A stretch of DNA of 26,846 bases from positions 1 to 26,846 of the IMG/VR virus record IMGVR_UViG_3300009103_000131; one strand, given 5' to 3'. Source of the stretch: a virus. The notes under the pieces are model-generated. The model was given only the letters and a program-made list of their open reading frames with translations, made no database searches and was not told the DNA's origin. Positions within the stretch are counted from its first letter, which is position 1. Each line of letters opens with the position of its first letter. A program made the position numbers and the translations under genes. Positions 9,041 to 18,853 of this stretch are shown piece after piece.

Positions 9041-9415
9041 CTACCGGACCTCTCTTAATCTGAAGAAGCATTTTACTTTTGGCAATCTCCCCCACTCCCA
9101 GAGGGGAGATGTCATGCTCGACTTGCTCTGTTGATGTCGCCCCTTCTGATATGTGCCGAGCTGAACAAGTTCAGTCCAGTTCTTCATGTCAGTAGAGTAT
9201 TCAAGAATATACATTACATAAGGAGTTATATCTTTTAATTCAAAGTATACTCCCTGCAACGAACCTTCCCTGTCTATCTTTAGTTCTAGCTTCGGCTCGT
9301 CTGCTGCGAGGGTTGCGATGCCCCACACTATAAAGAAAGCAATCCACGCTTTGCGTAGCCAGCCAAAGATAACCTTCTCCACCCTATCGTGATTTTTGTA
9401 GTAGTTTGTTTTCAT
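9041..9415 (-). CDS. Secreted or anchored protein, verrucomicrobial pattern
   Basis: A 124-aa protein read from the ATG at 9415, because a perfect promoter (9428-9456) places the transcript start just upstream. Residues ~24-40 (AWIAFFIVWGIATLA) form a signal peptide or anchor ending in AA-DEP. The mature part contains YILEYSTDMKNWTEL and ends in KCFFRLREV; the Y-x-LE-x-S-x-D-x-x-x-W ... FFRL arrangement is a pattern I associate with many exported Verrucomicrobia proteins. Function unknown. It is the best clue in the window to the host and may act at the cell envelope, for example in exclusion. Confidence 0.65.
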   Translation of the reverse strand: MKTNYYKNHDRVEKVIFGWLRKAWIAFFIVWGIATLAADEPKLELKIDREGSLQGVYFELKDITPYVMYILEYSTDMKNWTELVQLGTYQKGRHQQSKSSMTSPLWEWGRLPKVKCFFRLREVR

Positions 9416-9427
9416 AAGCAAAATCAA

Positions 9428-14757: not shown

Positions 14758-15113
14758 TTTATTGTTGGCACAGCATGAGCAAAAGACACGCTACTGTAGC
14801 AGTCAGTCTCATCGTACTTCGGGGCGTTTTCAATCTTGTTAAGTTCGTGTTCTACATCTTCTTCTGTCATCCAGCCGCGAACATCAGAATAGCCCAGTTT
14901 TTCGTTGTAAACAACATCCCAGTCATTTTCCTGTGACGCGCCTTTAAGTGTGCCGATCTTCAACAAGGCCAACTCATACTTACCCTCTCTGCCGCCATAG
15001 CTATAACTATGACGAACAACAGACAGACCATAACCGTTCTTGAAACGAACGATTCCGTGAACACCTTCGGGGTCTACCCCGTGACACCTAAATTTAATAT
15101 CTGAAAATTTCAT
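14754..15113 (-). CDS. Conserved phage hypothetical protein (119 aa)
   Basis: A 119-aa protein. VRFKNGYGLSVVRHSYSYGG, YELALLK and GWMTEEDVEHELNKIENA recall a group of small phage proteins with an N-terminal beta part and a WLTxEDV helix near the end; I know no function for them. It overlaps both neighbours by four bases (ATGA), so the three genes are translated in a chain. Confidence 0.65.
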   Translation of the reverse strand: MKFSDIKFRCHGVDPEGVHGIVRFKNGYGLSVVRHSYSYGGREGKYELALLKIGTLKGASQENDWDVVYNEKLGYSDVRGWMTEEDVEHELNKIENAPKYDETDCYSSVSFAHAVPTIK

Positions 15114-15376
15114 GCGTCCTCTCCAAGCTCAAAGCCTAACGGTGAAAAAGTATCGTCGAACCTAGCCTTGTTAAGCCCTTTCCGTAAGGTCGTCAGGATG
15201 TCTTTTTGCTCTTTGACGATTCTCCTAATGTCCTCAATGTCACCTTCCATGTAGTAGCATTTATTATGCGCACGATTAAACAAATGCTCGACATGGGTCA
15301 ACGAACCCTCAACATCAGCCATAGCCAAACGGGTCTGTTCGATTTCCTTCGCTGCTCTTTTGGTCATATCTCTCAT
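15110..15376 (-). CDS. Coiled-coil protein (88 aa)
   Basis: An 88-aa, nearly all-helical protein (LAMADVEGSLTHVEHLF, then EDIRRIVKEQKDILTTLRKGL). It starts at gttATGAGAGATATG right after a strong promoter and leads the operon that ends with the wall hydrolase. No family recognised. Confidence 0.6.
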   Translation of the reverse strand: MRDMTKRAAKEIEQTRLAMADVEGSLTHVEHLFNRAHNKCYYMEGDIEDIRRIVKEQKDILTTLRKGLNKARFDDTFSPLGFELGEDA

Positions 15377-15759: not shown

Positions 15760-15834
15760 TGGACGCGAGGGTCGGAATCGAACCGACGATTGCGGTTTTG
15801 CAGACCGCCGCCTTAACCACTTGGCCACCTCGCG
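15760..15834 (-). tRNA. tRNA-Cys (GCA), CCA encoded
   Basis: A complete 75-nt tRNA. Acceptor CGCGAGG pairs with CCTCGCG, discriminator T, encoded CCA; D arm GGCCAAGTGGTTAAGGC; anticodon stem GCGGT/ACCGC with loop CTGCAAA (anticodon GCA); T arm GTCGG-TTCGATT-CCGAC. A short phage tRNA could support the cysteine-rich small proteins encoded here. No promoter of its own is clear; it lies downstream of the 15931-16507 genes past their terminator, with repeat R5 directly after its 3' end. Confidence 0.95.
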
Positions 15835-16243: not shown

Positions 16244-16507
16244 TTACTCCGAAATTACTTGACGTATCTGTGCGAACTTCTTATTGATAAACGCAACAAC
16301 ATCGCAGTCGGCTGCGTTTCTTTGCCGAAGAGACCTAATTTGGTAATCAATGTGCCTCCGCATTTCACTCCGAACATGATCCCGCATGATAATCTTGTCA
16401 TGCTTTACCTTTCGTGTGACCTTCTTCTTCGCGGCCTTCTTCTGTAAATGTTTTGTTTTCACTACTTCTTCTTCTTCAAATGCTTTTATCAACTCTTGAT
16501 AATCCAT
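16244..16507 (-). CDS. Basic helical protein (87 aa)
   Basis: An 87-aa protein with an acidic start (IKAFEEEEVV), a strongly basic middle (KKAAKKKVTRKVKHDK) and a helical end; probably binds nucleic acid. Its ATG lies six bases after the T-run of the terminator that ends the large non-coding RNA, leaving no room for a separate promoter or Shine-Dalgarno. Expression by read-through from the RNA is therefore likely. Confidence 0.6.
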   Translation of the reverse strand: MDYQELIKAFEEEEVVKTKHLQKKAAKKKVTRKVKHDKIIMRDHVRSEMRRHIDYQIRSLRQRNAADCDVVAFINKKFAQIRQVISE

Positions 16508-16512
16508 GTATT

Positions 16513-16549
16513 AAAAAAATGGTGGCGGGAGTATTTGTGTACCCGCACC
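16513..16549 (-). terminator. Terminator of the large RNA
   Basis: On the minus strand GGTGCGGG pairs with CCCGCCACC (one bulge), extended by TA...TA, then seven T. The ATG of 16244-16507 follows six bases after the T-run. Confidence 0.9.
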
Positions 16550-17040
16550 TTTTCAGTACCCAGAAAACAAATGTTTCAGATCTACTTACTTCGGACTCAC
16601 CCACGAGATTCCTCAACCGATTGGTCTCCGTACTTGTCGCAGTCGCTACGTTACCCCTTTGGGAGGGGTTATTCCGTCACACCGATCTCACTCCGTCGAG
16701 AGAGAAAATTGAATTGAGTTGCTGCCGCGCCACCAGCAGTATGATCGCGCTGTATTGCAAGCGCAGTCGCGTAAGATGTCCTACCATCCCTGTCCTCCCC
16801 TTCATCCCGCCAAGGAAAAGGTTTGGCGATGGAGGCGTATTTAACTCGCCAACTCAAATTATATAAAAGAACTTTGGCCGCTTTTTATGAGGTGCTACCT
16901 CTAACTAGGCGCGAACCTAGGTGCGACCCAAATAAAGGGTCAGGGAGTGATTAGCATTGTATTCCTACCCTAATCTTTTAAGTCCGCCCTGCCAGACTTT
17001 CAACAACCCAAACCTTGGTTCATGACCAAATCAACCAAGA
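16513..17040 (-). ncRNA. Large structured non-coding RNA, ~528 nt
   Basis: A stretch without a credible gene that has its own promoter (17047-17075) and terminator. On the minus strand, local helices follow each other almost without gaps: CTTGGTT/AACCAAG (17038), AAGTC/GACTT, GATTAG/CTAATC (16974), GACCC/GGGTC, CTAGG/CCTAG with loop TTCGCG, GAGGT/ACCTC, TTGGCGA/TCGCCAA (16854-16825), CCTTTTCCTT/AAGGGGAGG, and ACCCCT/AGGGGT (16669). Size, phage setting and a nearby tRNA fit the ROOL/GOLLD class of large ornate RNAs, but I cannot confirm the class from memory. I saw no group I or II intron core, tmRNA or RNase P signature. Plus-strand frames over it are not convincing genes. Confidence 0.75.
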
Positions 17041-17046
17041 AAATAT

Positions 17047-17075
17047 ATGATAGCATGGTCGGGGTTCAATGTCAA
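17047..17075 (-). promoter_or_regulatory. Consensus promoter of the large RNA
   Basis: TTGACA (17075-17070), 17 bp ending ATGC, TATCAT (17052-17047). It begins seven bases after the stop of the upstream gene. Transcription should start near 17040, just before the first helix, with no start codon in the gttATGAGAGA form. Confidence 0.9.
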
Positions 17076-17082
17076 CGCCTTT

Positions 17083-17325
17083 TTACAAAGCAGCCAGAGA
17101 AATTACTCTGTCTGCTCGAAAGGCCCGAACATCGCCATCACGGTTAATCACGCGAGCGTAAAACCCTACTTCACGCCCATCGTTGTAAAGTGGCTTCCAC
17201 CCTCTACGCGCCCCCTTGAGATAATAAATCTTGGTAGCGTGTTTTTCGGGTGAATAAACCATCACATAGTTAGTAACCTTGGGAGCCATCCCAAGCCATC
17301 TCTTTACTCTGTCTTTTATCGTCAT
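17083..17325 (-). CDS. Small basic beta-rich protein (80 aa)
   Basis: An 80-aa protein. After a basic helix (IKDRVKRWLGM) come several strands; the end GFYARVINRDGDVRAFRADRVISL recalls the R-x-FR-x-DR-I pattern of WYL domains, which bind nucleic acids or ligands in regulators. The likeness is short and tentative. Single-gene unit with its own promoter, followed at once by the promoter of the large RNA. Confidence 0.6.
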   Translation of the reverse strand: MTIKDRVKRWLGMAPKVTNYVMVYSPEKHATKIYYLKGARRGWKPLYNDGREVGFYARVINRDGDVRAFRADRVISLAAL

Positions 17326-17868: not shown

Positions 17869-18545
17869 AAAAGTCCTAAATTAACTAAATTCTCTGCGTT
17901 CTTTGGCGTATACTTTCTACGGCGTGGATGCTTCTTCTTAAAGCCCATCTGATCAAAGGTATACTTCAATCCTTTATTCCACGGCACACGCTTTGGCTTT
18001 GGCTCTGGAATGTAGAATATGTTGAAGTGCGGCCCAACAGCCGTCTTGTCCCTAACGACAACACGCTCTGACTTAAACAATGACTTTTTAGATATGTCAT
18101 CTACAAAAGTATCATACTTATAAGGATTGTAATAAGCATGACGAAATTCCTCGCCTGACTCTGGCACACACTTTTCGCACCACATGGTTCCTTTGCATTG
18201 ACAAATCTCATACTTTTCTATCTTGTCACGAACTAACCGATGACGCTCTTTCGAAACCTCGCCAATGTCATGGCAGTTGCCGATAATGTAAGCGTGAACA
18301 TTCTTACGCTTTTCCCGAAGGACTCGTTGCCGCCCCGCCTCCTGCACTCGAAACTCCGCATTGTGCAATTCAACACGATGAGCGTGACAATAAAGCAATC
18401 CAGTTTCCGCATCAATCACCGAAAGGCATTCCTTCTGAATGTTGTAGTAAACTTTCACGCGGTCTGGCGCAACCTCGATGCCGTCCATCATCTTGCGAGG
18501 CCCAGCATCTTTCCAGCTAATGAATCCCTTTGGTTCTTTGCTCAT
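17865..18545 (-). CDS. Cys/Lys-rich hypothetical protein (226 aa)
   Basis: A 226-aa protein from the ATG at 18545, which overlaps the stop of the preceding gene; a longer frame would run into that gene. Early landmarks are FISWKDAGPRKMMDG and YCHAHRVELH, then a basic helix. CQCKG and CEKC around residues 130-140 could bind zinc. The end is very basic, with PKRVPWNKGLKYTF and KKHPRRRKYTP; the WNKGLK piece resembles the short DNA-binding NUMOD-type segments of homing endonucleases, but no nuclease domain is evident. It may bind DNA or RNA. Confidence 0.55.
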   Translation of the reverse strand: MSKEPKGFISWKDAGPRKMMDGIEVAPDRVKVYYNIQKECLSVIDAETGLLYCHAHRVELHNAEFRVQEAGRQRVLREKRKNVHAYIIGNCHDIGEVSKERHRLVRDKIEKYEICQCKGTMWCEKCVPESGEEFRHAYYNPYKYDTFVDDISKKSLFKSERVVVRDKTAVGPHFNIFYIPEPKPKRVPWNKGLKYTFDQMGFKKKHPRRRKYTPKNAENLVNLGLL

Positions 18546-18814
18546 GCTTCTTGGGCAATTTCTTCCATTGTTCCAAACAACTTTTCCCAACCCATTGGGC
18601 TTGTTCCAGAGATTAAAAACTCCCTGTCACCAGCGCACAACGACTTGAGCATCATAATGTTGCCAGTACGACGAAAGTCAAAAAGCTCTGACCCTTTAAC
18701 CGTCACACTATAATTGTCACCAGTAACCAAACACGCCCCCGTGAATGTGTAGGTGTGTTCCGGCTCGTAAGCCTCGGTGTAGGTGCATCCTGTGTCAATG
18801 AATCTTTCCTTCAT
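18542..18814 (-). CDS. Hypothetical protein (90 aa)
   Basis: A 90-aa protein from gttATGAAGGA at 18814, the position fixed by the promoter. Several strands (YTFTGACLVTGDNYSVTVKG) precede a helical end. It resembles a small beta barrel; no family recognised. First gene of a three-gene overlapping unit. Confidence 0.6.
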   Translation of the reverse strand: MKERFIDTGCTYTEAYEPEHTYTFTGACLVTGDNYSVTVKGSELFDFRRTGNIMMLKSLCAGDREFLISGTSPMGWEKLFGTMEEIAQEA

Positions 18815-18824
18815 AACTTTTAAT

Positions 18825-18853
18825 AGTATACCACAGCAGGGTGGTGAAGTCAA
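18825..18853 (-). promoter_or_regulatory. Promoter overlapping the ArfA-like stop
   Basis: TTGACT (18853-18848), 17 bp ending TGTGG, TATACT (18830-18825). The TGA of the 18850-18975 gene is inside the -35 hexamer. Confidence 0.85.

Follow-up and report, generated by a model that had tools for sequence, protein, structure and literature searches.

What does the minus strand at positions 16513..17040 specify in the viral DNA analysed here, a stretch of 26,846 nucleotides that we refer to as the window? The original prediction placed there a large, ornate non-coding RNA of ~528 nt with at least nine helices, its own promoter and a strong terminator, and regarded it either as a divergent ROOL or GOLLD RNA or as a new class. 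The start of this RNA was inferred from the promoter and its end from a U-run. The promoter, announced as a near-perfect sigma-70 element, lies on the minus strand at 17075..17047 with the sequence TTGACA-17-TATCAT, which agrees with the consensus at 11/12 positions and carries the TG of an extended -10 box; equivalent -35/-10 pairs, with different spacers, stand at the start of the RNA in the related viral contigs L025, L029 and L030. Relatives of the whole RNA were found in these three contigs and in L042/L043, and the prediction that the segment holds no credible gene was borne out by the five full-length relatives, which share no reading frame; the length of many indels is not divisible by three, and every frame is disrupted. 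A tRNA-Cys(GCA) gene (15834..15760) lies downstream on the same strand at a distance of 679 nt, as had been noted, giving the window RNA the proximity to phage tRNA genes that is a trait of GOLLD and ROOL; this tRNA is also near the RNA, but upstream of it, in L025, L029 and L042/L043.

To classify the RNA, we scanned the window with all 4227 Rfam models, using the curated gathering thresholds and then an E-value threshold. At the gathering cut-offs, tRNA alone was reported. Under the E-value threshold, the 3' part (16703-16515) aligned to the full length of the manA model RF01745 (model positions 1-192) with 40.3 bits and an E-value of 7e-9, below the curated cut-off of 55.2 bits for this family, whereas tmRNA, RNase P RNA and group I/II introns gave no match among all models, and ROOL and GOLLD gave none at E<=10 in either the window or its longest relative, L030. 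That the RNA is a divergent ROOL or GOLLD, an ornate RNA of the nanocage type, is therefore highly improbable and refuted at the level of sequence and structure, even though its size, phage origin and nearby tRNA would suit such an assignment, as would a conserved 3' part combined with a variable 5' part, the arrangement reported for GOLLD (PMC12286853). The 3' domain is instead manA-type and small, and window-type RNAs total ~450-650 nt, whereas GOLLD RNAs often exceed 800 nt. ROOL (PMC12286853) resembles the window RNA in size range, phage origin and tRNA neighbourhood, but its model gives no match here; homo-oligomeric RNA cages are a further trait of ROOL and GOLLD.

The landmarks of the manA fold (RF01745; Weinberg et al. 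2010, PMC2864571) are present in the window domain (16515..16703). The P1 hairpin (16686..16705) has a GACG loop, and across manA loci the two arms vary together while the loop, GACG / UGAUC, is conserved, the family feature being a GAC/GAU loop in P1 together with a long-range closing helix, P2. The window P2 is a 4-bp GGUG/CACC helix, whose 5' strand (16683-16680) runs into the invariant core GUGAC.GAAUAA (strand and core, 16669..16683) and whose 3' strand is CACC at 16524-16521; core, following hairpin and GUAA.GU together span 16680-16648, and a terminal hairpin follows, as in manA. The two strands of P2 vary together in the wider manA set (GGGAG/CUCCC, GGGUG/CACCC, GGAUG/CAUCC, CAUAG/CUAUG and others): 55/61 distinct loci contain their own P2 complement at the expected distance, whereas exchanging strands between loci lowered this number to 31 on average and 38 at most. 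GGUG/CACC of the window conforms to this pattern.

Searching for relatives with a pattern of the manA core plus the 3' end returned 40 viral loci, three of which (L025, L029 and L030) resemble the window; L042 and L043, which do not differ from one another in this region, came from a pattern of the conserved 5' stretch, L055 from a second core pattern, and L134 and L136 from a search with the downstream protein. The resulting clade has eight distinct members, the window and seven further contigs, and every one of them comes from the IMG/VR viral collection. A single RF01745 match per record, scoring 38-46 bits, is present in all of them, and 14 control genomes contain none. Plain DNA similarity searches against cultured phages and plasmids gave no match, one search yielding chance-length hits only. 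In the alignment of the eight 3' domains (91% mean column identity), RNAalifold predicted 54 pairs, 11 of them with compensatory change. Because the curated score is reached neither by the window nor by any other clade member, we call the RNA a manA-type variant and not a manA member: judged by its alignment, the 3' ~190 nt are a divergent, sub-threshold manA-type variant that lies outside the family by Rfam's rule.

The computed folding energy of the RNA (-165.9 kcal/mol, z -1.38) was not significant, since 11/100 shuffles folded equally well, and we therefore used covariation as evidence of structure. Compensatory changes occur in the conserved 5' module and in most helices of the 3' domain, so that the predicted ornate fold of at least nine helices, which gains no support from energy alone, is backed by comparison, with about nine helices in total. 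An ordinary intergenic region folding by chance, or a gene remnant, would give just such an unremarkable energy; that reading is refuted by the compensatory changes in independent contigs, the conserved promoter and the Rfam match, and retains next to no probability. We conclude from these comparisons that the window RNA is a real, conserved structured noncoding RNA of a phage, in agreement with the prediction of a large structured RNA transcribed from its own promoter.

Upstream of the manA-type domain, the 5' ~300 nt matched nothing in Rfam. They contain a conserved module (16930..17005) of 18 pairs, all of which are 100% paired in the five sequences compared and four of which show changes on both sides. 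The module consists of a hairpin (16997-16982), a pseudoknot joining 16991-16987 to 16945-16941, and a second hairpin (16975-16949) with an inner GGAA-capped stem; the five pairs of the pseudoknot read CAGGG/CCCUG, but CUGGG/CCCAG in L042. The pairing signal was lost in slid controls, and matches to a covariance model of the module (R1) were confined to five distinct viral sequences, all of the clade. Behind the module lies a middle region (16859..16929) whose length differs strongly among relatives; in the window it forms local hairpins at 16941-16925 and 16921-16905. Measured from the 5' end of the module, the manA region is reached after about 200 nt in L025 and after about 395 nt in L030. 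A further domain (16716..16855) is closed by GAGUUG (16855-16850) pairing with CAACUC (16721-16716) around an inner hairpin (16739-16722), and the RNAalifold consensus keeps helix and hairpin, with compensatory changes, in 4/5 sequences. The extension is present in five of the eight clade members, the window included, and wholly absent from L055, L134 and L136, where the promoter directly precedes the manA fold. These patterns identify the 5' ~300 nt as a clade-specific folded extension that is new to Rfam. The proposal of a new class thus applies to this pseudoknotted part and fails for the 3' ~190 nt, which belong to a described fold. The window RNA shares with manA the phage setting and a nearby tRNA, and differs from it in the extension with its own pseudoknot module, in an end fused with a U-run, and in the single small-protein gene that always stands behind the RNA in its clade, in place of metabolic genes.

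The end of the RNA is formed by a terminal hairpin, GGUGCGGG...CCCGCCACC (16521..16549, -11.1 kcal/mol), that belongs to the manA fold and at the same time resembles a terminator, with an 8-bp stem containing a bulge, a 12-nt loop and a run of seven U (16513..16519). The strong terminator that had been predicted is a plausible one, but its strength is doubtful: it is imperfect, a simple terminator scan of the window did not list it, the U-run is interrupted in 4/8 relatives, and the start codon of an 87-aa ORF follows only ~13 nt later. The CACC strand (16524-16521) has two possible partners, GGUG at 16683, giving P2, or GGUG at 16549, giving a longer terminator stem. Both GGUG strands are invariant across the clade, and in 8/8 members the P2 form and the terminator form come out at similar computed energies.

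The ORF (16244..16507, minus strand) encodes a small basic helical protein, and homologues of 87-102 aa, all of one family, follow the RNA after 12-18 nt in 8/8 clade members, with one extra small ORF intervening in L030. Members of the manA family are described from the 5' UTR of metabolic or photosynthesis genes; the window RNA lies 13 nt ahead of an ORF, one for a small basic protein. A basic segment, KTKH..KA.KKK..TR, is invariant in six diverse homologues. Protein family searches with the 87-aa product gave no match and no function, and the predicted structure, a two-helix model with a mean pLDDT of 85, points to none either. Because the ORF has neither a Shine-Dalgarno sequence nor a visible promoter of its own, and because it follows the RNA in 8/8 members while the nearest upstream genes change (RecA-like by eye in L055), RNA and ORF are, by their shared inheritance, one unit in this clade. 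The start of the ORF is in keeping with the rest of the phage, whose genes mostly have SD-less or leaderless starts. Among the many window genes concerned (for example 9041-9427, 15110-15376, 17083-17325 and 18542-18853), most lack Shine-Dalgarno sites and several have -10-like boxes immediately ahead of the start codon, which suggests leaderless transcripts with gene-by-gene promoters. Promoter-like sites number 10 in 3 kb, against 3.8 expected, and two perfect TTGACA-17-TATAAT matches with an extended -10 lie on the minus strand at 17555-17527 and 15671-15643.

How manA-type RNAs are placed in other phages was surveyed in 57 distinct loci whose end could be recognised, many of them closely related and not independent events. 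A tRNA ends 25-37 nt before the core in 11/57 loci and a tRNA starts 4-12 nt behind the RNA in 9/57, five loci having both. Outside the window clade, 27/27 promoters stand 57-65 nt before the manA core, a spacing that places the transcription start at P1. A terminator follows the RNA in 11 loci, and an ORF begins within 75 nt downstream in 31/57, in some cases behind a terminator. In two annotated phages, manA lies flush between tRNA genes, tRNA-Leu and tRNA-Asn in S-CREM1, tRNA-Arg and tRNA-Thr in RN05-S; between two tRNAs, it cannot be the leader of a protein gene. The literature treats manA as a cis-regulatory, 5' UTR element (PMC2864571, with which the Rfam label agrees; also PMC9964418), its adjacency to tRNAs has already been remarked by Rfam (quoted in PMC3692125), and our search found no demonstrated function for this candidate riboswitch of 2010. 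By their genomic arrangement, the loci with flush tRNAs, fixed-spacing promoters and own terminators do not fit the cis-regulatory label.

The survey also brought up several unusual loci. S-CREM1 carries, within 0.9 kb (1510-2408), wcaG, tRNA-Met, tRNA-Leu, manA, tRNA-Asn, an abiF-like RNA and tRNA-Gly; the idea of a joint wcaG-manA RNA was rejected in view of the two tRNAs that separate them, and wcaG itself is possibly an RNA of the tRNA array and not a leader. L065, L067, L073, L090 and their relatives carry, between tRNA-Gly and tRNA-Pro, a manA-type RNA with ~80 nt of additional structured-looking sequence behind the fold, possibly another enlarged variant with an extended 3' end. L120 and L130 contain manA-type RNAs without P1, closed by a helix of 6-7 bp (GGUCUU/AAGACC and GGUCUC/GAGACC) and situated directly behind a terminator. 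Bacterial hosts of manA were sought and rejected, the four genome hits consisting of one cyanophage contaminant, two sequences without a manA match and one weak match (31.5 bits) in a WOR-3 MAG. The contaminant, a 188-kb contig labelled Nonlabens xiamenensis (NZ_RMVE01000006.1, 56001-64000), shares 99.3% identity with cyanophage P-TIM40 over 4 kb, which marks it as cyanophage DNA in a bacterial assembly.

What, then, would the window RNA do? We favour, tentatively and at a little below an even chance, the view that it is a divergent phage RNA gene of the manA type to which the clade-specific 5' domain has been added. The RNA itself would be the main product: most transcripts would end at the terminal hairpin and U-run, releasing a stable free-standing RNA that would act in trans in the phage's tRNA and translation neighbourhood, as manA units within tRNA arrays must, and read-through past the hairpin would yield the small basic protein, possibly a binding partner of the RNA. 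The trans role is proposed by analogy with the tRNA-array loci of other phages. The same locus can be read differently, since the ORF behind the RNA in the window clade is compatible with both a trans-acting RNA and an attenuating leader. Transcription attenuators and ribosomal-protein leaders are structured RNAs with a terminator-like end right before a small basic protein gene, which is the arrangement of the window locus, although no known member matches and the manA fold is also found without a downstream gene. As the main rival, the RNA would serve the 87-aa ORF as a long 5' untranslated region that attenuates it, which we consider a real possibility, if short of likely. The joint presence of RNA and ORF in 8/8 members, with a tight spacing and varied upstream neighbours, fits a cis leader equally well, as do the ORF's lack of an own promoter in a phage given to SD-less or leaderless starts, the imperfect terminator so near the start codon and the leader-like ORFs of 31/57 manA loci; Rfam and PMC2864571 place manA among cis-regulatory elements. 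Conversely, manA elsewhere precedes tRNAs or a terminator and so leads no protein gene there. No riboswitch is known to have a variable 5' domain of 300 nt.

A leader could work as a switch, in which CACC pairs with GGUG 16683 (P2, the manA fold) to allow read-through and with GGUG 16549 to stop transcription; this too is conceivable, though we would not call it probable, and the invariance of both GGUG strands would suit it. The near-equal energies of the two forms were dropped as evidence for a switch, as shuffled interiors have the same energy spread and 35% of them lie at or below the observed difference. In a third reading, which we regard as improbable, RNA and protein would assemble into a single RNP, with one transcript supplying both the RNA and its dedicated RNA-binding protein. 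The invariant basic segment, the two-helix model and the strict co-inheritance of the two genes point towards such a partnership; the protein, however, has no family match, the presence of a basic helix says little about RNA binding, and elsewhere manA RNAs manage without this protein. The partnership could coexist with either a trans-acting RNA or a leader. Returning to the RNA as a free-standing product, a broader version holds that manA is no riboswitch but a portable phage RNA gene inserted tRNA-like into tRNA arrays, which in the window clade would have become a large pseudoknotted RNA, joined with a dedicated small basic RNA-binding protein in a two-component module; we think this version rather unlikely as a whole.

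The observation behind the original prediction was largely right and its interpretation half right, the RNA being of the known manA kind, to which it adds a 5' domain and a protein neighbour that are both new. The anatomy mapped here, with flush tRNAs, fixed promoter spacing, own terminators and a clade that combines an extra domain with a fixed protein, gives the manA family boundaries and enlarges it, and points to many manA loci being RNA genes of phages in their own right. If this is true, manA would be another class of RNA in the phage tRNA neighbourhood beside GOLLD and ROOL, and one small enough for study in cultured cyanophages such as S-CREM1.
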